A stretch of DNA of 64,000 bases, from the NCBI GenBank assembly GCA_944321735.1, contig CALUMK010000011.1, positions 1-64,000 of the forward strand. The letters are read 5' to 3'. Under the pieces are notes generated by a model. The model searched no databases. It was not told the DNA's origin and saw only the letters and a list, made by a program, of their open reading frames with translations. The DNA comes from an uncultured Bacteroidales bacterium. GTDB taxonomy: Bacteria > Bacteroidota > Bacteroidia > Bacteroidales > P3. Position numbers and translations under genes: made by a program. Positions 5,860 to 25,403 of this stretch are shown one piece after another; position 1 is the stretch's first letter, and every line of letters begins with the position of its first letter.

Positions 5860-5985
5860 TTAAAATTATTTATAAAGGCATCTGCTTTGTTGCGACCCTC
5901 GGTCAGGTCGGTCATGTGCAAAAGCACACTCCCTCCCTGCCCTTCGGCTCGACGCCTCGCATCTGCTCTTTATAAATAATTTTAA
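5860..5985. repeat. Hairpin repeat family, copy in the hmuT-hmuU gap
   Basis: A 17-bp perfect inverted repeat (5860-5876 with 5969-5985; left arm TTAAAATTATTTATAAA) closes a 92-nt interior. In the middle is TGTGC-AAAA-GCACA (5916-5929). The interior aligns with the copies at 13436, 24268 and 25280: shared CATCTGCT..GTTGCG on the left, CACTCC after the central hairpin, and GACGCCTCGCATCT on the right. The outer arms here are A+T-rich and unrelated in sequence to the other copies, yet still pair perfectly. Confidence 0.8.
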
Positions 5986-6043
5986 TCTGAGCAGATGGAT
6001 GCCTCCGGTTATTAATCCTTTTTTATCCCGGCTCAGGCCTCGG

Positions 6044-6069
6044 TGCGACCCTCGGTCAGGTCGGTCATG
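6044..6069. repeat. 26-bp direct repeat overlapping the hmuT stop codon
   Basis: Positions 6044-6069 are identical to 5891-5916, which is the left interior of the hairpin element at 5860-5985. This looks like a fragment of a second copy. The TGA stop of hmuT (plus 6065-6067) lies inside it. Confidence 0.8.
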
Positions 6070-6748
6070 CGCTTCGCCGCTGCCGCCATACACGCCAGGC
6101 AAAGCCGGAGCCGAACAACACCACGATTACCAAAGCCGTGTACACCAGCGAAGCCCAGTCCACCCGGGTCTCCGGGCTAAAGACAATCGCCGCCGGATGG
6201 AAAATCGTGCTGCAAAGCATCAGGACAAACAGCAGGAACTCCATCATCAGCAAAAGCTCCACCCGGAGTTCTTCTTCCGGCACCGCCATCCGCAACAAGT
6301 ACGCCCCGCCGCCCACCAGCAGCAAAGCCAGAACCGACAGGATACCGCCCACCCAGCCAAACGGGACACCGACGAAAGAGAACAACAGGCTCAGGTACAA
6401 GTAAAAGAAGGCAGGCAATACCAGCAAAGCCGGCAGGTATTCCAGCATCCGCAGATACCACGGCCGAGCCAAGCCGAACACCTTCTTGAGCTTGGATGCG
6501 GCAAAGCCCAAAATCAGCAACAAATGCAATGTGACCACAATGTTCACATCCTGCATCACCTTGAAATCTTCCAAGGCCTCGGACACCGAAAGCTTGTTCA
6601 CCCGCACCGCGTACCTTCCGCTGAACCACACCGCCGCAGCGCAGAGGACGGCAAACACCAAAGGGTAATACCGGCCCGGAGCCAGACTGTTCTTGAAGAC
6701 GCCCGCCAGCAAGCAAAGCAAGGTCATTATCAAAAGCACATTTTCCAT
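6065..6748 (-). CDS. hmuT: HmuT-like integral membrane protein
   Basis: A 227-residue, very hydrophobic protein with about six membrane segments and no soluble domain. By position between the CobN-like gene and the MotA/ExbB-like gene it matches HmuT of hmuYRSTUV loci, whose precise role is not settled. The start ATG (6748) overlaps the hmuS stop by one base (TGATG), which implies translational coupling. An upstream in-frame extension lies wholly inside hmuS and is a shadow. The stop codon is supplied by a repeat fragment at 6044-6069, so the last residues (..WRQRRSA) may differ from relatives without the repeat. Confidence 0.8.
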   Translation of the reverse strand: MENVLLIMTLLCLLAGVFKNSLAPGRYYPLVFAVLCAAAVWFSGRYAVRVNKLSVSEALEDFKVMQDVNIVVTLHLLLILGFAASKLKKVFGLARPWYLRMLEYLPALLVLPAFFYLYLSLLFSFVGVPFGWVGGILSVLALLLVGGGAYLLRMAVPEEELRVELLLMMEFLLFVLMLCSTIFHPAAIVFSPETRVDWASLVYTALVIVVLFGSGFAWRVWRQRRSA

Positions 6749-9700
6749 CACGCACGCTTCCGCTTGATTATCACAAACACCGATATGGCCACTGCCAGCA
6801 AAGCCATCACCCCGAACACCACCAAGACAAGCCGGGTCGTATCCACCGAAACGGCATCGCCCGCCGCATTCCGAACCTGCTCCTTTTCCAGAACCACCGA
6901 ACGCTGCCCGTCCGGAAGCGGTTCCGCGTTCAAGGCCTTGCGCACATCGGAACGATACTGCGAAGCCTTCTCCTGCGTCAGATTCCGCGCCACGAAATCC
7001 TTCAACAGCGCGTTCCCGCAAGTGAAACCATTGCAGCAAGCCCCGAACTCGTCCACTAACTCAGCATGAACCTCGGCCAGGTTCGCCAGCTGTTCCGGGG
7101 ACGCTTCCCAATAACCCTTGCGGGCCGTTTCCAGCATCACCGCCGTCATCTCCTGCAAGGCCGCCGGGCTCTCCGACTCGAAGAAATCGCGGACCCCGAG
7201 ACGGTTCACGTCCTGCACGTACACCTCGTAAATCTCATCCCACATCCGGTCGTCGATGACCGAAGGCTTCATCACGTTCCAGCCGTAGGTATTCATCACC
7301 AAGTCGGAGATCCCGGCGGCCGAACTGGCGCCCCCTTTCATCTGTTCCTTGATGTATCGCGGATTGAAGAAGGTCGTCCTGGCTTCCACCCCGATAGCCG
7401 AACGCAAATCCTGCACCCGGGCATGGTAACGGTTGCGCAAATCGTTGAAGTAATTGTCCGGATCCTTGCCCGTCACGTTGCGGACCGTCAAGGTAAGACC
7501 GCCCATGAACTCATAGACATGATCCAAGCTCAATGCGCCCCATGTATTGCTCTGCCGCGGCTGGACCACCACATCGGTATTCTGCAAGGCGGCTTCGAAC
7601 ACACCTTCCTTGAAGTCTCCCCAATCCGAAGAAGAACCGTACATCGCTCCCATGTTGTGCAGGTAGGTATCCGAAATCTCCGACTCCTTTTCCCAGCGGT
7701 CGCCGGCCTGCACCATGCCGGTGATACCCGTCCCGCTCATGCCGTTGATGCCGCCGAAAACACGGGTCGTGGACAATTCACGCGCCTCCTGCGGACTGTA
7801 GCCTTTCTGCAACAAGACCTTCTCCGCCGCCAGATTCCCTTCCGCCACCGGATTCCTGCCCTTGTCGGATGCCTGCGATGCCAGAACGATAGCCCGTTGC
7901 AGCAGTTCCAGACGGGAAGCTGCCAAATCGCGGAACTGGCCGGAGGTCTGCACCACCACATCCACGCGGGGACGACCCAATTCCTCTTCCGGAATCAGAC
8001 GTATGTCGAGCACCCGCCCGAAACGGTCGCGGACCGGCTCAACCCCCAACAGGTAAAGAATCTGCGCCAAAGTCGCACCCTCGCTCTCGATGAAACTGCC
8101 CGACCAAAGCGTGAAGCTCACCTTCGACGGCAGTTCGCCATGATTCTTGGCATAATCGGCCAGCATCTCCTCCGCCATCTTCTTGCCTTTCTCCCAAGCC
8201 GTCGCGCTCGGGGTAGTCTCGGCATTGATTGCATACAGGTTCCGTCCCGTAGGCAAGGCCGACGGATTGGCTAAGAAATCCCCGCCCGAAGTAGGCGGCA
8301 CATAGCCTCCCTCCAGTGCATTCAGCATCGAGGCCATCTCCGCCTCGGGACTATCGCGCAAAGCTTCCCGGTAGAAATTCACTTTTCCCAAGGCCGCTTT
8401 CAGATTGCTCACCGCCTTGGCGAGCTCAACCTGTCGGGCGCTCAGCCTCCGTTGTCCGTCAACGGCTGTCCTGCTCGCCCCGGAAGCCGCATCCACCGGC
8501 TTGGAATCCTTGGCCGAAGCCGCTTTCATCCTGGCCCGCATCCCCTGTGTCTCTTCCCACTGGCAAGCCAGCGCGTAATCTTCCGCAGCCACGCCCATGC
8601 CCAGAATCAAATCCCGGATATCGGCCTTCGGATTCCGCAAGAGTTTCTCCACCGCCGTTTCCGCCGGTTTGTAATACCGCGAAGCGAACCACGATTGGTT
8701 TTTCAACTGTCCTCGTTTCACCTTGCCCTTGGCTATGTCCACTTCCGCCAAATTGAATGCTACCGGATCCTTCGACATCAGACGCACCGAACTCAGAATC
8801 TTGTCCTCTGCAAATGGCACGCCCAAGGTATATAAGCCGCCGCCAATCTTTTCCTGCACCAATTCGGTGGCAAAATTGTCTATCTCCTGTATATCCTCAT
8901 CGCTATAAGGCTGTTGCAGGTTGCTATCCAACTCCAAATCCCGGTGCAAGCCCATCGAAACCGCCTTTTCCTTGATTTGCAGATTCAGGGAGGTCAAATC
9001 CTTCTCCTCGTCCTTTTGCGAGAAATAAGCCCGGATCTTTTCCTGCAAGCCTTCCACCTGGTCGTTCAGCCCGCTCTCCATGAAAGGCGGATTGAGATAG
9101 GTCATCGTCACCGCGTATGAACGCCTTTTGGCTATCATGCCCTCGCCCACATCGGCTATCGTGTAGAAATAGAAATGCGGCACATCGCCCACCAGCAAGT
9201 CGCTCCAGTCCTCCGAACTCAGGGCCACCTGCTTGCCCGGGATGAACTCGAGCGAACCATGCGTTCCGAAATGCACCATCGCATCGGCCTTGAAACCGCA
9301 ACGGGTCCAGAAATAAGCCGCGATATAGGGATAAGGTGGCAACGGATTGGAACCATGCACCACCTGGAAGGAATTTTCGCCCGTACCCTGCACCGGCTGA
9401 GGCAACAGCACCACGTTGCCGAAGCGGATCCGGGTCACGGCTATCTCCGGCCCGTCCTCGGTCTGACGGGTATAGTAATCGCCCGGAACCGGCCCGTACC
9501 GTTCGGTCAAAGCCTGATAAGAAGAGGGCAGCAAATCCCGTTTCAGCCAGCCGTCGAGATCCGATGCCTTGACCCATTGCGGATAGCCCGATGCCAGGTA
9601 GCGGTCGCGGTTCCCTTCCGCATAGCTGTTGAAGACCGGCCCCTGCTCCATCACTATGTCCTCGAACTCTTTTTCGCTGGCAGGCAAGCCCGTCAAATCA

Positions 9701-10902
9701 TAACCGGCATCGCGCAAGGCGCAGAGGAAACGGTACAGGGAGGGCAGAACCTCCAAACCCGCCGCCGTCAAGGCCGCCGAACCAGGCCCTTTGAAATAAT
9801 AAACAGCTATCTTCTTGTCCTTATTAGCTTTCGAACGCAAATCCAAATAATGGCCCACCGTCTCGCAAAAGCCGTGCAAGCGTTCGGGTATCGTCTTGAA
9901 CAAATACAGCCCGTCTTGATCCTTGTACTGGGCAATCAGCGCGTAAGGCAATATGCCGCCGTCTATCTCGGGCATCACCACGCTCTGGCTCAGGAAGCCC
10001 CCTGCCATGCCTTGCTTGTCGGCCATCCACTGCTCGTAAGTGGCGTTCATCGTCAAGGGACAGAACAAGGGGATATCCTGTTCGCGCAGCCAGTCCACCG
10101 CTTTGTCCCCCTGCCCCATCAACAGGCGGCCATGCGGCAGATAGATTACCGCATCGGGCCGTATTTCCTGCAAGAACGCCATCCGCTTGCCGAAGCCGGC
10201 CACGGGATAGACTCGGTATCCCCGGTCCTGAAAGGCCGTGATAATGGAATCCAGATGCTCGGTATTGGTATTGAATGGCCCGGCAATGCCCGTCAGCAAG
10301 GCAAGCTTGCGCTGCCCGTCCCGGTACAGGCCTTTTTCCACCAAATAGGCTTCGTATTCGGCCACCGTATTGAAACTCAAATCCTCCCCTATATGGAAAA
10401 GGCAGTCGGGGTTTATCTCGCGTACCGGCTCCACCGCAGCGGTAAACATTCTTTTCCCGCAGAGCTCCCGGCGGACATAATTGAACAGGCTCCGGAAATT
10501 GCCCGTCCCGCCATTACCCAAATAGGCTTCCACCGTGGCTCTCTGCAGACTGTCCAGATTGCAGATATCGTTATCCGGACTGGTCACCGCATAGCTGTAG
10601 AAAGGCAGGCCTCTATCGGCCAAACGCTGCATTTCAGCCCTGTCCTCGGCCGTGATGCGCAGCCCCATCCCGAACACCAGCACGGCATCGTACTTCCTGA
10701 GGCGGTCTATCTCGTCCACGCCCAAGGCTTCCACTTTCACAAAGGAATTGCCCGCCGACCTCACCATCTTGGCCGTCTGGAAGTCCTGGAAATTGAGAAG
10801 AGCAATCCTGGTGGGCGATGCCCAATGCCACCAAGACAGGCATAGCAAGAGTACAAGCCCGGCTATGGCTGCCGCCACGCCTACTTTCGTTTTCATCCTC
10901 AT
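6748..10902 (-). CDS. hmuS: HmuS: CobN/BchH-like chelatase subunit of the haem locus
   Basis: A 1384-residue CobN/magnesium-chelatase H homologue anchored at both ends. There is an N-terminal hydrophobic segment (about residues 8-27) and a C-terminal membrane helix (about 1355-1378) followed by KRKRA, so the bulk should lie in the periplasm. Recognisable CobN blocks include the FGTHGSLEFIPGKQVAL region and FGGINGMSGTGITGM. No CobS/CobT or ChlI/ChlD ATPase partners are encoded nearby, so classical ATP-driven metal insertion is unlikely. Recent work on Bacteroides HmuS assigns anaerobic release of iron from haem, and that fits this context. It starts 29 bp after hmuR and overlaps hmuT by one base. 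Confidence 0.88.
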   Translation of the reverse strand: MRMKTKVGVAAAIAGLVLLLCLSWWHWASPTRIALLNFQDFQTAKMVRSAGNSFVKVEALGVDEIDRLRKYDAVLVFGMGLRITAEDRAEMQRLADRGLPFYSYAVTSPDNDICNLDSLQRATVEAYLGNGGTGNFRSLFNYVRRELCGKRMFTAAVEPVREINPDCLFHIGEDLSFNTVAEYEAYLVEKGLYRDGQRKLALLTGIAGPFNTNTEHLDSIITAFQDRGYRVYPVAGFGKRMAFLQEIRPDAVIYLPHGRLLMGQGDKAVDWLREQDIPLFCPLTMNATYEQWMADKQGMAGGFLSQSVVMPEIDGGILPYALIAQYKDQDGLYLFKTIPERLHGFCETVGHYLDLRSKANKDKKIAVYYFKGPGSAALTAAGLEVLPSLYRFLCALRDAGYDLTGLPASEKEFEDIVMEQGPVFNSYAEGNRDRYLASGYPQWVKASDLDGWLKRDLLPSSYQALTERYGPVPGDYYTRQTEDGPEIAVTRIRFGNVVLLPQPVQGTGENSFQVVHGSNPLPPYPYIAAYFWTRCGFKADAMVHFGTHGSLEFIPGKQVALSSEDWSDLLVGDVPHFYFYTIADVGEGMIAKRRSYAVTMTYLNPPFMESGLNDQVEGLQEKIRAYFSQKDEEKDLTSLNLQIKEKAVSMGLHRDLELDSNLQQPYSDEDIQEIDNFATELVQEKIGGGLYTLGVPFAEDKILSSVRLMSKDPVAFNLAEVDIAKGKVKRGQLKNQSWFASRYYKPAETAVEKLLRNPKADIRDLILGMGVAAEDYALACQWEETQGMRARMKAASAKDSKPVDAASGASRTAVDGQRRLSARQVELAKAVSNLKAALGKVNFYREALRDSPEAEMASMLNALEGGYVPPTSGGDFLANPSALPTGRNLYAINAETTPSATAWEKGKKMAEEMLADYAKNHGELPSKVSFTLWSGSFIESEGATLAQILYLLGVEPVRDRFGRVLDIRLIPEEELGRPRVDVVVQTSGQFRDLAASRLELLQRAIVLASQASDKGRNPVAEGNLAAEKVLLQKGYSPQEARELSTTRVFGGINGMSGTGITGMVQAGDRWEKESEISDTYLHNMGAMYGSSSDWGDFKEGVFEAALQNTDVVVQPRQSNTWGALSLDHVYEFMGGLTLTVRNVTGKDPDNYFNDLRNRYHARVQDLRSAIGVEARTTFFNPRYIKEQMKGGASSAAGISDLVMNTYGWNVMKPSVIDDRMWDEIYEVYVQDVNRLGVRDFFESESPAALQEMTAVMLETARKGYWEASPEQLANLAEVHAELVDEFGACCNGFTCGNALLKDFVARNLTQEKASQYRSDVRKALNAEPLPDGQRSVVLEKEQVRNAAGDAVSVDTTRLVLVVFGVMALLAVAISVFVIIKRKRA

Positions 10903-10931
10903 TTTATACGTTTATTTTCCGATGTACCTGT

Positions 10932-13148
10932 TTATCTTCCTCTTTTGAAAAAACGGGTCAAATCATCAATATCCATAGACAGGGACACGTAGAACGTAAT
11001 CCCCGGGGAAAGAGATCCCGACACCAGGTCGTATGCCTGCGGCCGGTAATTGAAAAGGTTGTCGATGCCGACATTGAGCGAGACGGCATCCATGAAACGC
11101 TGGTTCACATTCAGCTTCCAAAGCGTGTAGGCCGGATAGCGGGTCTCTTCATAGACGGCCACCTCCATCCCGGTCTCCGGGTCTTGCTCGTAACCGGCTA
11201 TGTTGTTCTGGGTAAGCGCCGAAAGCACCCGCCCGCTCAAGGAAACCCCCAATTGGTACCAGCTTTTCTCGTAATGGTAGTCCAGACGAAGCACCCCGGT
11301 ATGGGGACGGGCGTAGCTGGCGTTCACCCCGTCCACTTTCTGCAAATCATAGACATAGGAATAACTCAGCTTCAAGCCGAAACCGTAAGGCAGCTTGAAC
11401 ATCAGGTTGGCATCGAAGCCTGCCGTATGCGAGCTGTAGACGTTGCGGTAGAATGCCGTATCCTGACGCTCGTTGTAAACGGTGGTAATCTTGTCGCGCG
11501 TATAGCTATAATACCCTGTAGCCGTGAAACTTGCCGACTTCCGTGCGTATTCCAGGCTCAAAGTCGCGTTCTGGCTTTTTTCGGGCTTCAGATCCGGATT
11601 GCCGTAGATGATGAACCAGCCCTGGTTCCCCATGTCGTAATTGGAATAGCGTTCCTTGAGCGAAGGGGCTCGGAATCCTCCGGCATACGACAGGCGGATC
11701 GAAACCGGGTTGATCTTGTACATGAACGAGACCTTGGGCGAGAGATGCGGCAGCTTGAACTGGCTGTTGTAATCCATGCGCAAGCCATAGACCAGGAAGT
11801 AGCGTTCCTGGAAGCTGATGTCGTGCTGGGCGTAGGCCACGGCCGTATGCGCCTCGTAACTCATCCAATCCCCGCTCTCGGTGGTATCGAACTGGTTGGA
11901 GAGCAGGCTCTCGTTGAAATACTCGGCCCCGACCGTGAGGATGTTCTTCTCGGTGAAACGGTAGTCGAACTGGACATTGGCCGTATTGTACACATTGCGG
12001 TATTCCAAGGTGGTGAGCTCGGTTACCGGATAGAAATTGTTCTTGTTGTAAAGGTCGAAGGCGTAGTTGAAACGCAAATGCGCCTTGTCGTTGATTTCAT
12101 AATTCAAGGTAGCTCCGGCCGAGCCGTCATAATAACGGTTCTTTCGGGTTTCGGAATAATCCCTTTCCCTGTGGTAGAAAGAGCCGCGAAGTTTCAACGA
12201 AAGGCCGGGACGGAAATCGTAACGGAAGGCCTGGTTCACATTGAGGTTTCGCCCACCGTAAATCGGGGAGCTTTCCACTATGTTCCCGACCGAATCCTTG
12301 CTGTCCAGCCAATAGGTATCGACGAATTTGTACGAAGCGTTGGTCGTGCTGCTGAACTTGCCTCGGTTAAAGCCCAAAGTGGCTCCGTAACGCTGCTCGT
12401 TGTGCGAACCGTAACGCCCGTTCAGGTTGAGGCTCCAAGGCTCGTCGGCTTCCTTGGTGATGATGTTGACCACGCCGCCCACCGCATTGGAACCGTACAG
12501 GGCCGAACCGGCACCCCGCACGATTTCCACCCTTTCCACATTGTCCATATTAAGACGCTCGTAGTCGATATTGTTCATGCTTTCCCCGGCCATTTTCTCC
12601 CCGTCGATCAGGAAGAGGATGTCGCTCCCGCCCATGCCCTGCATGTTCATGACCACCTGGCCGTCCATCTGCCGGCCGAACTCCACGCCGGGGATCTCGG
12701 TCTGCAGCACGTCGGCTATCGTCAAAGAACCTGTCTTCTCTATTTCCCTTTCAGATATGACCGTCGTGACAACGGGAATGTCCTTGAGCATCTTCGGTGT
12801 CCGGGTTCCGGTCACCACCACTTCGCCTAACTGGTTGTGTTCAGGCTCCATCACGAAATCGACAGCCGTATCCTTATGAATGCTGATTACGGCATCGTAG
12901 GGGTGATAGCCCATATAACGGATGGATATCCTATACGTCCCCGGCTTGGCGAACCGATACTGGAAACGGCCGTCCACATCCGTCACCGCGCCCTTGCCGC
13001 CTTGCACCTGGAATGTGGCCAAGGGCAGCACGCCGCCCGCCGCGTCATGCACCACGCCGCTAAGCCGCTGGGCGGGCAGCAGGGCAGGCAGAGCCAGCAG
13101 GCAGACCGCCACCGTCCACAAAACACGTATCCTTTTCAAGTTTTCCAC
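10932..13148 (-). CDS. hmuR: HmuR-like TonB-dependent haem receptor
   Basis: Outer-membrane TonB-dependent receptor, 738 residues. Signal peptide (cleavage near LPAQ), a CarboxypepD_reg-like domain (about 28-105), then the plug starting near GEVVVTGTRTPK with VERVEIVRGAGSALYGSNAVGGVVNIITK, followed by the beta-barrel. FRAPSLKERY and GNPDLKPEKS correspond to the FRAP/NPDL boxes of haem and haemoglobin receptors. Membership of the hmu locus supports haem as the ligand. The start is unusual: no in-frame ATG precedes the signal peptide, and GTG at 13148 gives a normal one. It lies 402 bp downstream of hmuY across a repeat, and 29 bp before hmuS. Confidence 0.9.
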   Translation of the reverse strand: MENLKRIRVLWTVAVCLLALPALLPAQRLSGVVHDAAGGVLPLATFQVQGGKGAVTDVDGRFQYRFAKPGTYRISIRYMGYHPYDAVISIHKDTAVDFVMEPEHNQLGEVVVTGTRTPKMLKDIPVVTTVISEREIEKTGSLTIADVLQTEIPGVEFGRQMDGQVVMNMQGMGGSDILFLIDGEKMAGESMNNIDYERLNMDNVERVEIVRGAGSALYGSNAVGGVVNIITKEADEPWSLNLNGRYGSHNEQRYGATLGFNRGKFSSTTNASYKFVDTYWLDSKDSVGNIVESSPIYGGRNLNVNQAFRYDFRPGLSLKLRGSFYHRERDYSETRKNRYYDGSAGATLNYEINDKAHLRFNYAFDLYNKNNFYPVTELTTLEYRNVYNTANVQFDYRFTEKNILTVGAEYFNESLLSNQFDTTESGDWMSYEAHTAVAYAQHDISFQERYFLVYGLRMDYNSQFKLPHLSPKVSFMYKINPVSIRLSYAGGFRAPSLKERYSNYDMGNQGWFIIYGNPDLKPEKSQNATLSLEYARKSASFTATGYYSYTRDKITTVYNERQDTAFYRNVYSSHTAGFDANLMFKLPYGFGLKLSYSYVYDLQKVDGVNASYARPHTGVLRLDYHYEKSWYQLGVSLSGRVLSALTQNNIAGYEQDPETGMEVAVYEETRYPAYTLWKLNVNQRFMDAVSLNVGIDNLFNYRPQAYDLVSGSLSPGITFYVSLSMDIDDLTRFFKRGR

Positions 13149-13435
13149 AACCGCAATGATTACAAGTCTTACCCAAAAGCAAGTTCCCTAAATAAACGAA
13201 TCCAGCCCCTCTCGATTTGCCAATCCGCAAACATTCAATCGCGAACTTCAAACATTTTGAAAATGCCGCCGTATTGCGAATACCCCACGGGAACAGCAAT
13301 TATCCGTAACAATCCGCTCCCGATGGCAAGTCAGAATGGGCAAGATGCAAGACTCCGAGACAAAGGCGTGACGGAGATTGCGTATTTAAGAACACAATCT
13401 GCATCCAAACAAACTATTAACCTCTGTCCCTAACA
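13149..13435. other. hmuY-hmuR gap, repeat-bearing
   Basis: No gene is visible. Positions 13322-13351 are a 30-bp exact copy of 13436-13465, one end of the hairpin element next to hmuY. So the gap holds one full element and one end fragment. I found no clear TAnnTTTG box for hmuR, which suggests read-through from hmuY. Confidence 0.6.
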
Positions 13436-13562
13436 GATGGCAAGTCAGAATGGGCAAGATGCAAGGCGTCGCGAGGGTGAACGCGAAGGAGTGTACTTTA
13501 GTACATGACTGAACGTGAATCCCTCGCGCAACGCAGCAGATTGCCCATTATCACTTGCCATC
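13436..13562. repeat. Hairpin repeat family, copy at the 3' end of hmuY
   Basis: Outer arms 13436-13445 and 13553-13562 (gatggcaagt/acttgccatc) pair perfectly. Inside, atgggcaa pairs with ttgcccat across a 4x4 internal loop. The centre is TGTAC-TTTA-GTACA on the plus strand (13492-13505). The hmuY stop codon (TGA, plus 13551-13553) lies inside the outer arm, so the element starts within the gene's last codons. Confidence 0.85.
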
Positions 13563-14171
13563 GAAAACAGGATATGCATACGTAAAGGAAGCAAAACCAG
13601 TCTCATCCCCCGTCTCCCCGCCTTTGTAAGACGTAAACTGGATTTTGGCATACTTCCCCTCCTTGGTCCGCACCACATAGACATTGGGCTGAACGCTATA
13701 GACAGGGGGCATCCCGCTGCGGGTCACCCAGTCTTCCAAGACCATATTGATTTCGGTGGTATCGTAAATGATGATTCCCTGCATCATCTGGCTCATATCC
13801 ACAGCCACTTCGGTATAGGTCAGCTCATCGGGCATGAAGACGCTGCCTTCGGGTATCGCGGTCAAGGCATCGAAAGAAGTCTCACCGGTCATGATGGCCG
13901 AACCCTCGTTGGTCTTGACGTTCTCGCGGTGCATGGCAATGTCCCATTTTTCAGGAGCCGCTTCCTCGATGCCTTTGGCCACCGAAGTACCGTCCTCTAA
14001 CGACACATACACCCATTTGTCATAAGCCGAGACATCCAGGTTCTTCATCTGCTTGGAAACCACCGTGTCCGTGCCATCATCGTCCTTGTCTTTGCCCTTG
14101 TTCTTGTCGCACGAGGCCAAAATAGCCATACCCAGCAAGGCCGCGCCTGCATAATAAAGAATCTTCTTCAT
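13551..14171 (-). CDS. hmuY: HmuY-family haem-binding lipoprotein
   Basis: A 206-residue lipoprotein: signal peptide with lipobox ..MAILASC, Cys21 the predicted acylated residue, then an Asp/Lys-rich linker. The mature part has the HmuY-family start (NLDVSAYDKWVYVSLEDG), the W-DIAMHRENVKTN block, and a C-terminal Y-VVRTKEGKYAKIQF region. In P. gingivalis HmuY captures haem at the cell surface and passes it to HmuR. The true start is the ATG at 14171; the open frame upstream to 14333 adds non-coding sequence. It heads the locus; a 210-nt leader and the 3' hairpin may tune its expression relative to hmuR. Confidence 0.88.
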   Translation of the reverse strand: MKKILYYAGAALLGMAILASCDKNKGKDKDDDGTDTVVSKQMKNLDVSAYDKWVYVSLEDGTSVAKGIEEAAPEKWDIAMHRENVKTNEGSAIMTGETSFDALTAIPEGSVFMPDELTYTEVAVDMSQMMQGIIIYDTTEINMVLEDWVTRSGMPPVYSVQPNVYVVRTKEGKYAKIQFTSYKGGETGDETGFASFTYAYPVFDGK

Positions 14172-14388
14172 CTTATTTCTTGTTTTAAGGTTACACTCCT
14201 TTAGAATTATCGGACACGGTGACTTCAGCGTTTCCCGCATCTCCAAAGCCAATTCCGGTACATTGGGATTTCCCCCGCCCCGCAAATCAATCAAACCCGG
14301 GCATTCCCGAACCGGACTGCAAAATTCGGGCATCCGCCCAGTTTAAACAATACTAACTTGTAGGTATTTTTCAAGACCCCGGCATACC

Positions 14389-14419
14389 CAAAAATAGGTA
14401 TCTCATCGACCCCACACAA
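14389..14419 (-). promoter_or_regulatory. Candidate promoter of the hmu locus
   Basis: On the minus strand TTG (plus 14417-14419) is followed after 20 bp by TATTTTTG (plus 14389-14396), matching the Bacteroidota -33/-7 pattern. It would give a leader of roughly 210 nt before hmuY. A second TATTTTTG box lies at 14443-14450 without a good -33 partner. I could not identify a Fur-like operator with confidence. Confidence 0.55.
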
Positions 14420-16676: not shown

Positions 16677-16784
16677 AAAGAGGGTGAGCCAAAAGTCGCT
16701 GCATTCTATTCTAGAGAGACCCCCCGCAGAATACATTCTGGCAGGGTTCCTCGATAAGGAAAACGGCTTTGGGGTCACTCTCTT
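16677..16784. repeat. Imperfect inverted repeat of about 108 bp
   Basis: aaagagggtgagccaaaag (16677-16695) is roughly the reverse complement of 16767-16784 (ctttggggtcactctctt). Between them cagaat-ac-attctg forms a small palindrome. It directly abuts the larger palindrome at 16786. The arrangement resembles a small non-autonomous repeat; no ORF is present. Confidence 0.5.
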
Positions 16785-16785
16785 A

Positions 16786-16982
16786 AACCCAAATCGGTCA
16801 TTAGACTTTGGGGAGATTGCCCGCTTGTGTCATGCAGCATGCTTCTCGCCTAGCCGAAGGCGTAGCGGGCTACGTCGAGGCGTAGCGAGAAACAGGATGC
16901 GGACAGAAGCGGGCAAGATGCCCGAATGCCTCATTTTCCCAATCAGAAACGGACTCGGCGTGTCTAATGACCGATTTGGGTT
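16786..16982. repeat. 197-bp nested palindrome
   Basis: Perfect 21-bp arms at 16786-16806 and 16962-16982 (right arm begins gtctaatgaccgatttggg). Inside, gcccgctt pairs with aagcgggc, and further in cttctcgcc pairs with ggcg..gcgagaa. The whole segment can fold as one long interrupted hairpin. One arm-like sequence recurs alone at 28874-28898 (24 of 25 bases). No coding potential is visible. Confidence 0.75.
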
Positions 16983-17021
16983 AAATCAAGCCAAAGTGAT
17001 TTTTCCGCTGGCGAACCAATC

Positions 17022-17109: not shown

Positions 17110-17111
17110 GA

Positions 17112-18452: not shown

Positions 18453-18462
18453 TTCCATGGAA

Positions 18463-18549
18463 CTTGCTCTACGAATGGGTTGCGCCACCTTTGCACTCAA
18501 TAGTTCGGAAAAATGCAAATTCAAACACAAAACCGAACTATTTTATGAA
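18463..18549 (+). repeat. Downstream copy of the AAA_14 flanking repeat
   Basis: It matches 17022-17109, including the 10-bp inverted repeat (18499-18508 with 18533-18542) and the ttttatgaa end. No ORF follows it, so it may mark the start of a deleted second gene copy. Confidence 0.85.
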
Positions 18550-18591
18550 CGGCAGCTTACATGGTTCCTTGCTTCAGTTTCTCAAAATAAC

Positions 18592-18636
18592 AAAACAAAA
18601 GCGACCCCGATAGAACCTATTCCCTATCAGGGTCGC
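18592..18636 (-). terminator. Rho-independent terminator of ftsE
   Basis: gcgaccc with inner gatag (from 18601) pairs with ctatc..gggtcgc (ending 18636). On the minus strand a T-rich tract follows (plus-strand aaaacaaaa just left of the stem). It lies 35 bp after the ftsE stop. Confidence 0.75.
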
Positions 18637-18670
18637 TTCGCATAAAAAGCCCTCTTCCCGATTTTTCCGC

Positions 18671-19351
18671 TTACAACTGTTCGTGGCGGACTTGGCCATC
18701 CTCGCAGACCAGGATATGGGAGGGGTATTTGGTAATCATCAGAAAATCGTGCGTGGCCACCAAGACCGCGCAGCCCGCCTTGCTGATATCGACAAGAAGC
18801 TTCATGATTTCCTCGGACGTGTCCGGATCCAGATTGCCGGTAGGTTCGTCGGCCAAGATGATTTCCGGCCTGTTGAGCAAGGCGCGGGCAATGGCGATGC
18901 GCTGCTGCTCCCCGCCCGAAAGCTGGTAAGGCATCTTGCGGGCTTTGGCTTCCAGCCCCACCAATTCCAGAACCTGACGGATACGGTAGTCCATCTCGTC
19001 CTTGTTCTTCCAATCGGTAGCACCGAGGACAAAGGAAAGGTTGTCATAGACCGAACGGTCGGTCAGCAGCTGGAAATCCTGGAACACGATGCCGAGCTTG
19101 CGCCTGAGGTAAGGGATATCGCGCGTCCGCAGCCGTGCCAAGTCGTAACCGGCCACGCTCGCCTGCCCTGAAACCACCGGTATATCCGCATAAAACGTGC
19201 GCAACAGGGAGCTTTTCCCCGTGCCGGTCTTGCCAATCAAGTACACGAAATCGCCCTGGGCAATCTCCAAGTTCACATCCGAAAGGATTTTCACATTCTT
19301 CTGGTACACATCCAAGTTCCGCGTCCAGATGACCGCATTCGAATCTTCCAT
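18671..19351 (-). CDS. ftsE: FtsE-like ABC transporter ATP-binding protein
   Basis: A 226-residue ATP-binding subunit. Walker A GKTGTGKSS (40-48), Q-loop VFQDFQLL, signature LSGGEQQR (144-151), Walker B ILADEPTGNLDP (165-) and the ATHD switch histidine are all present. The pattern MxRRKLGIVFQDFQLLTDRSVYDNLSFVL is typical of FtsE, which with FtsX transmits a signal to peptidoglycan hydrolases at division. FtsX is not adjacent here, so the gene is separated from its usual partner. A LolD-type role is possible but less likely by motif pattern. Confidence 0.85.
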   Translation of the reverse strand: MEDSNAVIWTRNLDVYQKNVKILSDVNLEIAQGDFVYLIGKTGTGKSSLLRTFYADIPVVSGQASVAGYDLARLRTRDIPYLRRKLGIVFQDFQLLTDRSVYDNLSFVLGATDWKNKDEMDYRIRQVLELVGLEAKARKMPYQLSGGEQQRIAIARALLNRPEIILADEPTGNLDPDTSEEIMKLLVDISKAGCAVLVATHDFLMITKYPSHILVCEDGQVRHEQL

Positions 19352-19562
19352 AAGCTCCTATCTTGCATTATCTGCCGACGGCACGGCAACATTTCAGCCC
19401 GCATGACACGTCAATTTGCCATTGCCGCAGACCGCCAACATCCTGCGAAGATACACCAAAAACGACATACCCCCAAAAAGAGAACCGGACTTGCCAGCCC
19501 GACCCCATTCCAAAGGCCGCCTATCGGATATAGAACATGCCTAAAGTTTGGCAAAAACCAAG

Positions 19563-20624
19563 CTAGTCCTTCCCGAACGGCTTCAAGCCCTTCACTGCTT
19601 CATCCGGCGTAATCCGCTTGCCGCCGTTGTCCAAGTCAATCAGCACGTAACGCCTATTGCCCATACCCAATTCCTCCATGTACGAAAGCTGGCGATGCCC
19701 GTGCCGGCTCTCGATCCGTTCCACCAAAGCCCGGTTCTCGGCCTCGGTCATCGCGTAGATCAAATCCACGCAAGCTTGGTCGAGGGCAAGAATATCGGTC
19801 GAGGACAGAATCCCCACATTGGGCGTCACCACCGGTTCGGCATTGCCCCCTTCGCAATCGCAGGACACCGACATATTGCGCATCACGTTCACATAAGTGA
19901 TATGCTCGCCGAAATGGTCCACCACCGCCTTGGTCGATTCGGTCATCCGCTCCATGAATTCCTCCTTGGCAATGTCCCACTGGTTATCCTGATGGGGCGT
20001 GGTATGGATCCAAGCCTTGCCCACCCGGCCATCGGCGCATCCAATCCCGATGTTCTTGTTGCTGCCGCCGAAACCGCCTTGGCTATGGCCCTTGAAATGT
20101 GTCAGAACCACCATGGAATTGTAATCGGCAATATGGCTGCCCATGGCCATCTTCGTGAACCATTTCCCTCCCTTGACAGGCAGGCAGAGCGTGTCCTCCT
20201 CGTCCATGATGTCCACCGGGCAGAACGTCCAACCGTTCACCTTCAAGGTCTGGCGATGCTGCTCAGTCGTGTAGCGGTCGCCCGTGTAATAGGTGTTGGT
20301 TTCCACGATACGGGCATCGGGCAAGTCTTTTTTGATTAATGATTCGACCCAATCATGGGGAATAATGTTGGGCCCGTTTTGCTCGCCGGTGTGCAACTTC
20401 ACCGCCGTTTCGCCTTCAATATTCCCGCAAACCTGCTCATAGGCCTTGATCAGCCCTTCGGCACTGAGATTCCGGGTAAAGTACACAATGGATTCGTTGC
20501 CATTCCGTTCTTCGTAGGACACGTACTTGTCGCCGCCCGTCCCCGGCACAGGCTTTGTCTGCGCCATGGCGGCAAGGTTCAAGGCCACCATGCCGGCCAT
20601 CATCGTTGTCAGTATTTTTTTCAT
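19563..20624 (-). CDS. Exported DUF362 protein
   Basis: A 353-residue protein with a signal peptide (cleavage after LAAMAQ, about residue 22), then a DUF362 domain. Visible blocks include HTGEQNGPNIIPHDWVESLIK, the MVVLTHFKGHSQGGFGGSNKNIGIGCADG segment, and PNVGILSSTDILALDQACVDLIY. Some DUF362 proteins carry a ferredoxin domain; this one has only scattered cysteines (a C-D-C pair near NMSVSCDCEGG) and no CxxCxxC cluster. The molecular function of the exported subgroup is unknown to me. The gene is solitary, with long gaps on both sides and no clear promoter box. Confidence 0.8.
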   Translation of the reverse strand: MKKILTTMMAGMVALNLAAMAQTKPVPGTGGDKYVSYEERNGNESIVYFTRNLSAEGLIKAYEQVCGNIEGETAVKLHTGEQNGPNIIPHDWVESLIKKDLPDARIVETNTYYTGDRYTTEQHRQTLKVNGWTFCPVDIMDEEDTLCLPVKGGKWFTKMAMGSHIADYNSMVVLTHFKGHSQGGFGGSNKNIGIGCADGRVGKAWIHTTPHQDNQWDIAKEEFMERMTESTKAVVDHFGEHITYVNVMRNMSVSCDCEGGNAEPVVTPNVGILSSTDILALDQACVDLIYAMTEAENRALVERIESRHGHRQLSYMEELGMGNRRYVLIDLDNGGKRITPDEAVKGLKPFGKD

Positions 20625-21113
20625 ACCGAATAGTTTTTTTTACTGTAAAACGTTGCCCCTTGCGGTGACGATAGATTCCCGCAGCGGGGTGATATACGTG
20701 CATTTTGCCATAAACCGTTGCCCTTTACGCTCTTCATATCAAGCTTGAACTCCGCCCAAAGAAATCGATACCAAGCCGAAACCGATGCCATTCAAGTCAA
20801 ATCAGCACAGCCAATGAGCGATCCAGACACAATCCCGCCAATGAAATCAATGGCAAAATTAAACATTGGCCATCAACCAGCATCTACCTGCATGCACGGA
20901 ATCATGACCCGGATTACAGGAAGCCGTATCCTGCCCGACCGCAAACCCAATCAGCGGATATGTAAAGCAATTTCTGTGAAAGGCTATCCAGAACAAGGAT
21001 TTTTTGTAACTTCGCTTTTTTCGTGCGCACTGCGATAACTCGCAGCCAAGCTTCGCGCCCCAGCTTAGGGTGTGTCCTATACGCCTTAATTGAAACGTGC
21101 CAAACACAGCAGC
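20625..21113. other. 489-bp gap between the DUF362 gene and the broken ATPase gene
   Basis: No conserved ORF. Near its right end TAACTTCG (21007-21014) resembles the TAnnTTcG variant of the -7 box. CTGCGA-TAAC-TCGCAG (21030-21045) forms a short hairpin just downstream. Both would belong to the leader of the gene at 21114. Confidence 0.45.
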
Positions 21114-22710
21114 ATGATGAAATTTCCGGTAAACGTACAATCGTTCAGACAACTCCGAGAAGAAGGCTATGTCTATGTGGACAAGACCGCCATGGTGTAC
21201 CAATTGGTCAAGACCGGCCACGTGTATTTCCTGAGCCGTCCCCGGCGTTTCGGCAAAAGCCTCCTTGTCTCCACGCTCCGGAACTATTTCGAAGGGCGGA
21301 AAGAACTTTTTCCAAGGCTTGGCCATCGAAAAGCTCGAAACCGAATGGAACCAATATCCGGTATTCCATATCGACTTCAACGGCGGGGACTTCCTGACTG
21401 CCGGCAGTTTGGAGGGAATTTTGGAGGGCATTGTCTCATCTTGGGAAAGGCAATACGGGAAAAGTCCTGACTACACAGACGTAGGCAACCGTTTCGCCTA
21501 CGTCCTGCACCAGGCCCGGCAGCAATACGGCCGCCGCTGCGCCGTCCTGATAGACGAGTACGACAAACCCATTCTAGATGTCCTGGACACCGGGCGGAAG
21601 ACCAGTCTCGACGGCCAGGAATGTCTTTTGGAAGACCGCCATCGGGACATCCTCAAGGCTTTTTACTCGGTCTTCAAGGCCGCTGACGAGGATATCCAGT
21701 TCGTCCTCCTCACCGGCGTCACCAAATTTTCCCAAGTCAGCGTGTTCAGCGGCTTCAACAAACCCGCCGACATCAGCATGAACGCCCAGTTCGAGAGCCT
21801 ATGCGGCATCACCCAAGAGGAACTGGAGAACTGCTTTGCCGAACCGATAGCCCAGATGGCACGGGAGCTGGGACTCAGCCGGGAAAAAATACTCCAGAAT
21901 CTCAAAGACCAGTACGACGGCTACCATTTCAGCCATCGCATGACCGATATCTACAACCCGTTCAGCCTGCTCAACGCTTTTTACCAGCAATCCATCCAAG
22001 ATTTCTGGTTCAGCAGCGGAACACCTTCCTACCTGCTCCGCCTGCTCTCCCATAGCCACGAGAACCTGAACGAAATGACCGGCAAATACTACAGCCCCAA
22101 TGAATTCGTGGATTACAAGGCCGATGTGGAAAAGCCCCTGCCCATGATTTACCAAAGCGGGTATCTGACCATTAAGAAATACGACCCGTTCTTCCATACA
22201 TTCCTATTGGATTTCCCCAACAACGAAGTCAAAAATGGCTTTGTGTCCTTAGTCGCCTCCAACTATCTGAAGCCCAAACAGAATATGGACAGCTGGATTC
22301 GGAAGATTGTTTCTGCGCTGCACCAAGGCCAACCGGAGAGCTTGCGCGACATCTTCACCGCTTTCCTGGCCGACATTCCTTACACCATGCGGCGCAAAAA
22401 AAGCTTGCCGGAACGCGAGAACTTTTTCCATTACACGTTCTACCTTATATTCAAGTTGATAAGCGTCTACACGGTTTATACTGAAAAAGAACAAAGCCAA
22501 GGTCGGTCCGACTGCATCGTGGAGACCCCGCAGTATGTCTATATTTTCGAATTCAAGCTGGACGGAACAGCCGAAGAAGCCCTCAGGCAAATAGAAGAAA
22601 AAGGATATGCCCGGCCTTACGCCGCCGACTCCCGCAAACTCTTCCGCATCGGGGCTTCGTTTTCCTCCAAGACCGGCACGATAGCTGACTGGAAGCACAT
22701 CCCAGCGTAG
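21114..22710 (+). pseudogene. AAA-ATPase-like / PD-(D/E)XK nuclease protein, frameshifted
   Basis: Two overlapping frames make up one protein. The first (from ATG 21114) encodes the AAA-ATPase-like start: VNVQSFRQLREEGYVYVDKTAMVY and the P-loop-like SRPRRFGKSLL. The second frame (to 22710) encodes the rest: AIEKLETEW, IDEYDKPIL, LLTGVTKFSQVSVFSGFNK, and a C-terminal PD-(D/E)XK domain with FEFKLDG. The frames join at a five-T run (21307-21311). Removing one T gives KELFQGLAIEKLE, the expected family sequence, so this is a single +1 change. It could be a decayed gene, phase variation in the T-run, or a sequence error. Everything downstream is intact, which favours a recent or reversible event. 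Confidence 0.85.
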
Positions 22711-22783
22711 CAAACGACTGTACTGCTTGCCGCAAGCCCCCTGCGCATTGGCATGTCCAAGCCTGCGTATTCGGATTTTTACC

Positions 22784-22791
22784 TATCTTTG
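22784..22791 (+). promoter_or_regulatory. -7 box for tig
   Basis: TATCTTTG, a full TAnnTTTG match, lies 95 bp before the trigger factor ATG. No TTG is found at the usual -33 spacing. Confidence 0.5.
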
Positions 22792-22886
22792 CTGTTTGGT
22801 TTGTCCGCTGGAATAGCATGATGCCGACATGGGCATCGCACGCAAGCCAAAACAGGAAACGCTGATATTTAAATATTTGTAAAATA

Positions 22887-24269
22887 ATGAACATCACAAG
22901 AGAACCAAAAGGGGAATTGTCCGCTTACCTGAAGTTAGAGCTGGTACCCCAGGATTACGAAGGCAAGGTTGCCGAGGAGTTGAAGAATTATCGTAAGAAG
23001 GTAACGATGCACGGGTTCCGTCCCGGACAGGTTCCCATGGGACTTGTAAAGAAGATGTACGGGCAGGCCGTCCTGATGGATCAGATTAACAAAATCGTGG
23101 CCGAAAGCATAACCAATTATATCAAGGAGAACAAAATCGATATCTTAGGCCATGCCCTCCCCGTGCCGGAAGAAGAAAAGAAGAGCGAATACGATTTCGA
23201 GAACCCCGGCGACTTCACGATGTGGTTCGAAATCGGGCTGGCTCCCGAATTCTCGATCGACCTGGCCGGCATCAAGACGACGGCTTACCATGTAGTGGCC
23301 ACCGATGAACAGATCGACAAGCACCAGGAAAGCATCTGCCGCCGCTACGGCGTAGTCAGCAGCCCTGAAACCGCAGGCGCTGCCGACACCTTGGGCGGGG
23401 AACTCTTCGAATTGGACGAAGAAGGCAACATCAAGGAAGGCGGCATCAACACCAAGACATCGATTGCCATCGACCTGATTGCCCTGAAGACCATCCAGAA
23501 GCAGTTCATCGGCAAGAAGGTGGGAGACACCGTGGATTTCGAAATCCAGAAGGCATTCAAGAACAAGGCCGACCTTTCCTCGATGCTCAACATCAAGGAA
23601 GAAGAACTGGCCAACATCGCGCCCAAGTTCCGTTTCCGGATCGACAGCATCACCCACGTGGAACCGGCCGTTCCCGGAGAAGACCTTTACGCCAAGGCTT
23701 ACCCCGGCGTGGAAATCAAGGACGAAGCCGCTTTCCGCGAACAAATGCGCAAGGAAATCGAAGGCTACTACAAGCAGCATAGCGACAAGAAGCTCTTTGT
23801 CGATACCGTTGACAAAATCATCGACAATACCAAGTTCGACCTGCCGATGGACTTCATCAAGCGTTGGGTCATCTCCGAAACCAACCGCGATGCCGAAGAA
23901 AAGAAACAGGAACCCATCAACGACATCCCCGAAGAAGAGCTCAAGCAGATTGAACGCTCGCTGCGCTGGGATTTGATCCAGAACAAGATTACCGCCCAAT
24001 ACGAAGTGAAGCTGGAAATGCAGGATTTGCGCGACTTCTACAAGAACCGGGTGCTGGCCCAGTACTTCCCGGTAAATGCCGAAGACGAAGAAAGCAAGAA
24101 GCGCATTGAAGCCTTCATCGATTCGATGATGAAGAACGAGGAAGAAGTGAAACGTGTCTACGACATGGTTTTTGAAGAAAAGCTGACCGCCCTGTTCATG
24201 GAGAAGACGCAGATGGAGACGAAGGATGTGGATATGGATGAGTTTGTGGCTATTCTCCAGAAAAAGTAG
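22887..24269 (+). CDS. tig: Trigger factor
   Basis: Ribosome-bound chaperone, 460 residues. The N-terminal ribosome-binding domain carries the GFRPGQVPMGLVKKMYG signature (residues 45-61, counterpart of the GFRxGKxP loop). A divergent FKBP-like middle domain follows (about 150-240), then a long helical C-terminal arm. Bacteroidota trigger factors have a shortened or divergent PPIase domain, as seen here. It is followed by clpP after 343 bp, a partnership also found in other phyla, although clpX is not here. A hairpin repeat starts right at its stop codon. Confidence 0.93.
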   Translation: MNITREPKGELSAYLKLELVPQDYEGKVAEELKNYRKKVTMHGFRPGQVPMGLVKKMYGQAVLMDQINKIVAESITNYIKENKIDILGHALPVPEEEKKSEYDFENPGDFTMWFEIGLAPEFSIDLAGIKTTAYHVVATDEQIDKHQESICRRYGVVSSPETAGAADTLGGELFELDEEGNIKEGGINTKTSIAIDLIALKTIQKQFIGKKVGDTVDFEIQKAFKNKADLSSMLNIKEEELANIAPKFRFRIDSITHVEPAVPGEDLYAKAYPGVEIKDEAAFREQMRKEIEGYYKQHSDKKLFVDTVDKIIDNTKFDLPMDFIKRWVISETNRDAEEKKQEPINDIPEEELKQIERSLRWDLIQNKITAQYEVKLEMQDLRDFYKNRVLAQYFPVNAEDEESKKRIEAFIDSMMKNEEEVKRVYDMVFEEKLTALFMEKTQMETKDVDMDEFVAILQKK

Positions 24270-24392
24270 CGGCTTGTGATAATGGGCAATCTACCGCGTT
24301 GCACTCCCTTGGCAAAATCCTCACGTACAAAAGTACGCTCCGGTTTGCCTGCGGTCGCGCGCCTTGTATCTTGCCCATTCTGACAAGCCGCT
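24268..24392. repeat. Hairpin repeat family, copy after tig
   Basis: Outer arms agcggcttgt (24268-24277) and acaagccgct (24383-24392) pair over 10 bp. Inside, atgggcaa pairs with ttgcccat across a 4x4 loop. The centre is CGTAC-AAAA-GTACG (24324-24337). It begins inside the tig stop codon region. Compared with the copy at 13436, the outer arm differs at several positions and both sides have changed together. Confidence 0.85.
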
Positions 24393-24428
24393 TAGGAACG
24401 GGTATTTCTTGGCAATCATAAAAACGAA

Positions 24429-24457
24429 CGCCTCGTATTTTAGCCGTTCTGACACGC
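24429..24457. repeat. End fragment of the hairpin repeat
   Basis: Matches the right end of the copy at 25280-25403 (cgcctcg.at.ttagccgttctgacacgc) at about 27 of 29 bases. No left half is present. It lies in the tig-clpP gap; the rest of that gap (to 24612) shows no further feature. Confidence 0.65.
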
Positions 24458-24612
24458 TACTTATGAGAACAGGAAAAGGCTTCGGGCAAACCGTCCGAAT
24501 TCTTTGACAAGTCGCTTGAAAGGGGGAATTCTCTGATAGCCATGCGGTTGTCGGATTCTCCAGAACAAGCAAACGGATATTTATTCCGATTCACTTCCAA
24601 AAGGAAACTGAA

Positions 24613-25293
24613 ATGAACAACGAATTCAGAAAATACGCCATGGGGCATCGGGGCATCAGCAGTCTGGCTTTGGACCGCTTTGATGCCTATACCCGGGCCT
24701 ATATTTCGCCGACCATTATCGAGGAACGCCAGCTGAACGTGGCGCAGATGGATGTGTTCTCCCGTTTGATGATGGACCGCATCATCTTCTTGGGAACGGC
24801 CATCAACGACGAAGTGGCCAACATCATCCAAGCCCAGCTGCTGTTCCTCGATTCGGTGGATTCCAAGAAGGATATCCAGATTTACCTCAACACGCCCGGC
24901 GGTTCGGTTTATGCCGGCCTTGGCATCTACGACACGATGCAGTACGTTTCATCGGACGTAGCTACAATCTGTACCGGCATGGCAGCCTCGATGGGTTCCA
25001 TCCTGCTCTGCGCCGGCGCCAAAGGCAAACGCTCGGCCTTGAAGCACTCCCGCGTGCTGATTCACCAGCCGCTCGGCGGCGCGGAAGGGCAGGCTTCAGA
25101 CATCGAGATTACCGCCCGCGAAATCCTCAAGGTAAAGAAGGAACTTTACGACATCATCGCCGAGCACAGCGGCCAGCCTTACGAGAAAATCTACAAGGAT
25201 GCCGACCGCGACTTCTGGATGACCTCGCAGGAGGCGCTGGAGTATGGGATGATTGATGAGATTCTCGAAAAACCGAAAAGCGGCGTGCGATAA
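24613..25293 (+). CDS. clpP: ATP-dependent Clp protease proteolytic subunit
   Basis: Serine peptidase that forms the 14-mer chamber of Clp protease, 226 residues. The catalytic triad is Ser126 (GMAASMGS), His151 (IHQPLGG) and Asp200 ([12 protein letters not shown]). [19 protein letters not shown] is the substrate-strand region. The N-terminus is about 25 residues longer than the E. coli precursor. In most genomes clpX follows; here the next gene is lepB. The stop codon TAA lies inside the left arm of a hairpin repeat. Confidence 0.95.
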
Positions 25294-25403
25294 CGGCCAA
25301 TCTGCTTCGTTGCGCGAGGGGTCGGGCTAAGTCATTTACAACAGTAAACTCCTGTCGCCCTCACCCTCGCGCGCCTCGCATCTTAGCCGTTCTGACACGC
25401 CGC
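25280..25403. repeat. Hairpin repeat family, copy over the clpP stop
   Basis: gcggcgtg (25280-25287) pairs with cacgccgc (25396-25403). Inside, acggc pairs with gccgt. The centre is TTTAC-AACA-GTAAA (25335-25348). The last clpP codons and its stop form the left arm. Confidence 0.85.

Follow-up and report, generated by a model that had tools for sequence, protein, structure and literature searches.

A family of hairpin elements at gene ends in a Bacteroidales genome resembles the enterobacterial ERIC repeats in core and fold

We examined a 64,000-nucleotide (nt) stretch of DNA from an uncultured Bacteroidales bacterium (assembly GCA_944321735.1, contig CALUMK010000011.1; the whole stretch is called the window below). 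It carries four full copies of a dispersed hairpin element of about 125 bp, together with three remnants. The initial annotation had described all seven; the paired spans of the folds place the four full copies where it put them to about one base, and the central hairpins and outer arms that it quoted read as it gave them. In the list below, arms belong to one of two classes, A or B, z scores compare each fold with shuffled sequence, and R1 is a covariance model built from the four window copies.

5859-5986, plus strand: full element with class A arms (A+T-rich, private); fold z -7.9; R1 123.8 bits
13436-13562, minus strand: full element with class B arms; fold z -8.6; R1 141.5 bits
24268-24392, plus strand: full element with class B arms; fold z -5.3; R1 130.8 bits
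25280-25403, plus strand: full element with class B arms; fold z -6.7; R1 139.6 bits
13322-13351, minus strand: 3' block plus right arm left by an older copy, downstream of the 13436 element (locus L005)
24429-24457, plus strand: 3' block plus right arm left by an older copy, downstream of the 24268 element (locus L006); common to two related genomes, G001 and the sister species G011
6044-6069, plus strand: leftover repeating the 5' inner-stem piece of the 5859 element; also in G001 and G011

The four full copies are imperfect palindromes with paired spans of 124-128 nt. They fold as single long hairpins, and for each of them 0 of 200 shuffles folded as well. The three fragments exist, but their folds are not clearly better than those of shuffles (z +1.4, -1.7, and -1.1). 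With R1 we found no fifth full copy in the window, the next match scoring 11.7 bits versus 123.8-141.5 bits for the four copies; the opposite strands of the four score 26.5-48.6 bits.

Three of the four copies, at the genes for trigger factor, ClpP, and an HmuY-family protein, sit at a stop codon. The 24268 element starts at the TAG stop of the trigger factor gene (22887-24269; Pfam), and the left arm of the 13436 element contains the stop codon (TGA, 13 nt from the core) of an HmuY-family gene on the minus strand (13551-14333; Pfam). The final codons of clpP (24613-25293) and its TAA stop are part of the left arm of the 25280 element. In five relatives that lack this element (G002, G005, G006, G007, and G010), clpP ends in NK-stop or KK-stop about three codons earlier, and an ATG follows its stop after only 4-10 nt. 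The left end of the remaining copy, at 5859, is 4 bases away from an ATG (5855) that is in frame with a minus-strand open reading frame (ORF; 5262-5927). This element is found at the same place in G011 and G001; for G009, G010, G007, and G005, the alignment to the window stops at this point.

A search of the 2,714,796-base genome with R1, as the initial annotation had proposed, gave 111 matches at E ≤ 1. In each whole-genome search at most 150 candidates were scored (in this genome, 150 of 424 first-look candidates). Across 99 loci we obtained 115 matches at E ≤ 1e-9, representing 99 distinct sequences, 98 of which have both core blocks; the alignment comprised the 91 copies whose core measures 80-84 nt and whose 12-nt flanks are complete. 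In these copies the core is strongly conserved and consists, in order, of a 5' block (TCTRCKKCGTTGC), a variable inner stem, the sequence GTCA-CGTAC-NNNN-GTACG-CTCC, the other half of the stem, and a 3' block (GCCTYGYATC). It carries fixed internal loops. By a simple rule the outer arms fall into two classes. Class B (59/94) has the consensus cGGcGtGtgATAAcGGGcAA and is marked by the 4x4 internal loop (GATA/TCTG) that the initial annotation had seen in most copies. Class A (35/94), with the consensus taAAA.g.aTTT.tagcGGca, starts with A's and ends with T's. The outer arms are private to each copy and self-complementary, with a pairing score of 16.4 within one copy versus 6.7 between arms of different copies (97 copies), and are largely uncoupled from the core.

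The proposal that the stems covary holds across the 91 copies and at orthologous sites. Paired cells make up 81.6% of the alignment versus 63.6% after shuffling, and 31 of 36 pairs change on both sides (630 such cells versus 236.5 in shuffles). The covariation score is 0.441, compared with 0.160 for shuffled alignments and 0.084-0.224 when partners are slid by 1-3 columns. Among orthologous copies in three genomes of family f43, from the same phylum, one arm pair reads C-G, T-A, and A-T, and between locus L061 and its orthologue in G011 a C-G pair has become T-A. Fit is poorer in places: helix 4 of the pair structure of R2, a model made only from copies in the window's own genome, is only 69% paired, and some inner stems match this structure poorly, as their length varies among subfamilies. 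We also observed a non-Watson-Crick link between one base of the 5' block and one of the 3' block (T/C 44, T/T 5, G/C 4, and G/T 24, with 14/91 copies unread; p 3e-11 by a statistic that ignores relatedness). The link is followed by 17/24 Bacillales copies. It was not borne out by script in Verrucomicrobia, where G stands with C in 8/11 copies and CCTCG just before GCCTTG may be misread.

The initial annotation took such compensatory change as direct evidence for selection on a fold, in RNA or as a DNA cruciform. The change is present, but the conclusion is too strong: many of the arm differences accompany wholesale replacement of elements or exchange of cores between arms, which alters both arms at once, so that covariation of the arms need not mean stepwise selection. 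As for the two kinds of fold, the counts favor pairing at the level of DNA. Since selection on RNA from the gene-sense strand should favor G.U, yet G.T pairs are not above A.C (45 versus 66 in the arms, 93 versus 106 in the core), the pairing looks DNA-like rather than RNA-like, and a DNA hairpin or cruciform fits better.

The arms could also be kept palindromic by a mutational mechanism, such as template switching or a quasi-palindrome correction that copies one arm onto the other, and in that case the covariation would not be evidence of selection at all. In keeping with this explanation, arms change together even between flanks of about 98% identity, mismatches show no strand bias, and right halves are tandemly duplicated in several loci, which suggests strand switching. 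However, the internal loops and core blocks have not been corrected away across copies and phyla, and orthologous copies have undergone separate compensatory steps. We consider such a mechanism possible but doubtful.

Mapping relative to stop codons, another suggestion of the initial annotation, revealed that the left arm is locked to them. Of the gene ends found with one detector, 55/91 on the left of an element lie 19-29 nt before the core, compared with 5/81 on the right and 77/2,769 at random positions of the same loci (2.8%); a codon-scored version (14-32 nt) gave 59/78 on the left versus 0/30. The stop at the left arm is mostly TAA or TAG. With a simple ORF caller, 46 of 98 copies are flanked by genes of a single strand and share their direction, 10 point against such genes, 29 are between convergent and 0 between divergent genes, one is inside an ORF, and 12 could not be classed for want of a neighbor. 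The lock recurs in G011 (left 38/63 versus right 3/54), and in other species of the genus (left 11/19 versus right 0/12), and more weakly in other Bacteroidales (4/6 versus 1/9 within 34 nt, p 0.09) and in family f43 (10/24 versus 3/27, p 0.02). In Bacillales, 6/26 copies begin, on their left, exactly at the 5' end of an antisense tRNA gene. ERIC-like copies (see below for ERIC) also occur inside tRNA gene arrays of Bacillales (L139, L143, L162, L178, L188, L220, and L238), and six of these seven loci have one antisense-tRNA-flush copy.

The elements turn over quickly. In G011 we located both flanks of 43 of the 98 copies, within 842 kb of its approximately 2.6 Mb, and these flanks are mostly 96-100% identical (lowest, 88%). 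At the 43 syntenic sites, 20 elements are conserved, eight have a different element as their counterpart at the same place, and five have the core swapped with the arms kept. Among the rest, three have extra loop sequence, three have no element between the flanks (two of these are one locus), two have an arm changed or cut off, one is of another kind, and one is unclear. These classes were assigned automatically. Two of the entries, L089:2001 ("core swapped") and L089:1886 ("loop insert"), trace back to deletions in the genome of the window itself, and the class "different element" is doubtful for L044:2001, where the right arm is identical. The 24268 site, which is not among the 43, has the same arms around an unrelated core in G011 and no full element in G001; the data there do not separate fold-back copying of the left arm from gene conversion. 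Left arms diverge even between copies with similar cores, with an identity of 0.39 at 90-95% core identity (0.39-0.47 for less related pairs) and 0.60 for the 18 pairs above 95%. Remnants lie mostly on the far side of the element from the gene. An extra 3' block in the same sense is found downstream of 27/87 copies and upstream, on the gene side, of 1/87, the block being part of a whole neighboring copy in a few loci; extra 5' blocks number 12 downstream and five upstream. The corresponding counts for extra 3' blocks in G011 are 13 and three of 57. Right halves are also directly or tandemly duplicated in several loci.

At one f43 site, we considered whether the core had entered pre-existing terminators; this was not supported, as four aligned relatives without the element lack those arms. 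Some f43 sites without an element (L444, L445, and L448) contain another intergenic near-palindrome, built of short units containing GGAC or GTCC. Separately, the G011 orthologue of the 13436-13562 copy (L005) has a central loop longer by about 79 bp. In G011 the orthologue of L022 holds a similar sequence in its central loop, and the end part of the sequence recurs in L015. It may be a nested repeat for which the hairpin loop serves as target.

A second explanation for the lock is that the element is a vertically inherited regulatory RNA, a hairpin in the 3' untranslated region (UTR) that acts as a terminator or as a stabilizer or destabilizer of mRNA and is kept after stop codons by selection. 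The lock would then follow from function and not from insertion. Fixed orientation, exact position after stop codons, conservation at 20/43 sites in the sister species, and class A arms that start with A's and end with T's all agree with this idea. Against it, close relatives have another element, or none, at a given stop codon, the five relatives without the clpP element have nothing there but the 4-10 nt gap, and G.T pairs are not in excess over A.C. We therefore judge this explanation unlikely. A Rho-independent terminator consists of a short stem rich in G+C with a long run of U's after it. The elements are hairpins of about 125 nt with conserved internal loops; judged by the column consensus, the sequence downstream reads only tTTta for class A and has no T run for class B.

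The core and fold of the elements resemble those of ERIC (also called IRU or RU-1), a repeat that has been known in enterobacteria since 1990-91, with 5'TA3' termini and a target duplication according to the tabulated summary (PMC2229807, Table 1). End to end, R1 matched an ERIC of E. coli that lies between pgk and fbaA (29 bits, E 1.1e-6 in 1,044 bases); on the opposite strand within that palindrome it scored 3.6 bits, and an 8.6-bit match overlaps its edge by one base. R2 scored 30.4 bits on the same E. coli copy (E 1.2e-5 in 587 kb). Both ERIC and the elements described here are multi-copy, intergenic, imperfect palindromes (about 127 bp in ERIC), and both have a co-linear core, GTCAC-TAC-NNNN-GTA-GCTCC, with flanking blocks. 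Variable self-paired arms are also common to both. They differ in phylum and in the lock to stop codons and orientation, which is seen here and not in 18 enterobacterial copies.

Relatives of the core are widespread. A scan of species genomes with a central pattern found at least 115 stretches, with taxa taken from record titles. Among the matches listed are Enterobacterales, Bacillales, Porphyromonas and other Bacteroidales, Verrucomicrobia, Lentisphaerae, Vampirovibrio, Coriobacteriales, and others. Because the pattern itself selects the center, we counted two outer blocks that lie outside it, both written from Bacteroidales copies. Among the matches listed, both blocks are present in 24/25 from Bacillales, 26/35 from Bacteroidota, 5/5 from other Bacillota or Actinomycetota, 7/17 from Verrucomicrobiota or Lentisphaerota, 6/19 from Enterobacterales, and 9/12 from others, versus 0.5-1.3% of shuffles (Bacillales 0.5%, Enterobacterales 1.2%). 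The Bacteroidota group includes five loci from two metagenome-assembled genomes (MAGs) labeled Ruminococcus or Bacteroides, one label being probably wrong (JAMPAI01, Ruminococcus flavefaciens; L136, L145).

We searched 15 whole genomes, chosen from the pattern-scan matches, with R2 at E ≤ 0.001. Matches numbered 5 in E. cloacae, 34 in C. youngae (Citrobacter), and 71 in B. brennerae (Buttiauxella); 79, 69, and 22 in three Porphyromonas; 128 and 148 in two Verrucomicrobia MAGs; 58 in Clostridiaceae M8S5, 16 in Shouchella, four in Lysinibacillus, and one each in Siminovitchia, Marinobacter, and Vampirovibrio. Sporosarcina thermotolerans, with 0 matches at this threshold, was the one genome of the 15 without any. 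Within the phylum, 48/395 sampled genomes, including the window's own, have matches at E ≤ 1e-4, and in a set of 61 genomes at E ≤ 0.001, matches occur in 11/13 from the genus, 2/24 from the rest of the family, and 8/24 from the rest of the order. Own arms pair better than swapped arms in Verrucomicrobia (17.8 versus 7.1), Enterobacterales (11.2 versus 6.2), and Porphyromonas (13.1 versus 9.4); variable self-paired arms are a general feature across these groups.

The likeness to ERIC might instead be convergence, with any long palindrome that has a GTAC-type loop scoring as well. A short, palindromic core would allow this, as would the selection of the phyla with a central pattern. Yet the opposite strand of the same ERIC palindrome scores only 3.6 bits, the outer blocks recur although they lie outside the pattern, and in two of the three named enterobacterial genomes R2 detects copies by the tens, not just the copy that the pattern had picked out. 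Convergence is thus improbable.

Rfam gave a further point of contact with ERIC. In the window, the only match at gathering score was a tRNA, so that V_AS5 (RF02818) had none; this family also gave no match at E ≤ 0.5 to three loci of the window's own genome. In a permissive scan of 11 loci, which also returned rRNAs and a cobalamin riboswitch, V_AS5 matched the E. coli and Enterobacter ERIC (L105, L154) over the full length, on the opposite strand, at 40.2 and 45.9 bits (gathering score 96). Because of these full-length matches below the gathering score, V_AS5, named as a Vibrio antisense RNA, may rest on Vibrio ERIC copies. Sub-threshold matches to HrrF, which overlaps a 5S gene (L149), and to sX9 were not credited.

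The likeness of core and fold to ERIC, the copy number, the lock to orientation and stop codons, the turnover, and the DNA-like covariation are all observed. Taking them together, we think it probable that the family is a Bacteroidota branch of an ERIC superfamily, that is, of non-autonomous palindromic mobile repeats of about 125 bp that are placed or kept at gene ends and turn over fast. We refer to an ERIC superfamily rather than to an ERIC because a host outside the Enterobacteriaceae and Vibrionaceae is a matter of known range, not of kind. One account gives these two families as the range of ERIC, with 30 to 711 copies (PMC10969869), and another reports fusions of RU-1 to the 3' ends of genes and a Vibrio variant (PMC2759123). 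In titles and the openings of abstracts, we found no published ERIC relatives in other phyla and no stop-codon lock, although the flush stop position may already be noted for ERIC. To that extent the bacteria-wide range and the positional rule were not found described earlier; the family is large, real, and fast-turning. The conserved core, the relation to ERIC, the lock, and the uncoupling of core from arms all go beyond the initial annotation.

Several observations weigh against this interpretation. Some 40% of the left gene ends in the genome fall outside 19-29 nt, a part of these stops being inside the arm, and the 5859 copy in the window is an exception to the rule. No lock is seen in Enterobacterales (flush gene ends at three left and four right sides in 18 copies), and in Porphyromonas it is not clear (6/19 versus 3/17, p 0.45). 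TA is found near both outer ends in just 15/35 class A and 11/59 class B copies. We saw no clean insertion with a target duplication, and insertion and replacement are inseparable in family f43, since the sequence after the stop codon in four relatives without the element is unrelated. The elements may have an RNA role. Finally, three Pfam models, one for each enzyme type, pointed to no mobilizing enzyme in the genus.

That search covered 13 genomes of the genus, 76-98% complete. Neither Y1_Tnp (PF01797), which matches 5/14 control genomes, nor the IS630-type DDE_3 transposase (PF13358) was found in any of the 13, and we rejected RAYT and IS630 transposases as mobilizers on these grounds. A reverse transcriptase (RVT_1, PF00078) matched in two of the 13, namely G012 (without copies) and G010 (38 copies), and was not found in the three copy-richest genomes. 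That the elements are REPs or REPINs moved by a RAYT (Y1 tyrosine) transposase, as their palindromic, intergenic, and high-copy nature might suggest, is very improbable given this absence of Y1_Tnp and a size of about 125 bp versus the 20-40 bp stated for REPs in the abstract of PMC3733652.

Other known repeats are also dispersed or palindromic. REP, BIME, and REPIN sequences are likewise dispersed extragenic palindromes; they are much shorter and go with a Y1 transposase. Integron attC sites have conserved outer R and L boxes, a variable center, and a tyrosine integrase. Judged from its sequence, the layout here is the opposite, with a conserved center and variable outer arms. The BrickBuilt element of Porphyromonas gingivalis is likewise a long stem-loop miniature inverted-repeat transposable element (MITE) in a Bacteroidales genome, but it has a minisatellite inside the MITE, and its available description mentions no ERIC core (PMC4596501). 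YPAL/RU-2 of Yersinia, also a palindromic repeat, is about 168 bp long with targets that adjoin dyad symmetries; it differs in length and, as summarized, has no TA at its ends (PMC2229807). Both are set apart here by description only. The window also contains an unrelated repeat of about 203 bp (16783-16986), with ends CCCAAATCGGTCATTAGAC / GTCTAATGACCGATTTGGG beside TTAA, that is absent at the syntenic G011 site. With dozens of copies in G001, G009, and G011, many of them 95-100% identical, it is a recently active TTAA-type MITE.

On this view of the family, a conserved folded core carries private, self-complementary outer arms, and in this genus the elements are placed, or kept, at gene ends in one orientation. 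With the left arm starting at the stop codon, the element supplies or adjoins the stop. The fast turnover shows in new copies that, at several sites, occupy the stop-codon end while an old right arm is left downstream, and in the exchange of cores between arms. We infer that a recombination or replication machinery may recognize the folded DNA core, that insertion may target the TA within the stop codon, and that elements in the opposite orientation either do not arise or are removed by selection. As a transcribed 3' UTR hairpin, the element would probably affect mRNA ends, by analogy with the orientation-dependent effect on upstream mRNA outlined for ERIC in Yersinia (PMC2229807).

On a more speculative and tentative level, ERIC could be the enterobacterial branch of a bacteria-wide group of enzyme-less folded DNA elements. 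In Bacteroidota, such elements would insert one way only and precisely at stop codons. The machinery behind this would be distinct from IS630, Y1/HUH, and reverse transcriptase, and might be a replication or recombination function common to all hosts that recognizes the folded core; each event would rewrite the flanking arms, giving every copy self-complementary arms of its own.

ERIC gave its name to a polymerase chain reaction (PCR) typing method, and relatives in Bacteroidota, Bacillota, Verrucomicrobiota, and other groups now make hundreds of copies available for comparison. Genomes that lack the usual transposases are also at hand, and since sites in a sister species have turned over while the flanks are mostly 96-100% identical, a mobilizing factor could be sought there. 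The family also carries a caution: paired changes in palindromes need not imply selection at the level of RNA. The lock to stop codons and orientation is a sharp clue to mechanism or to selection.

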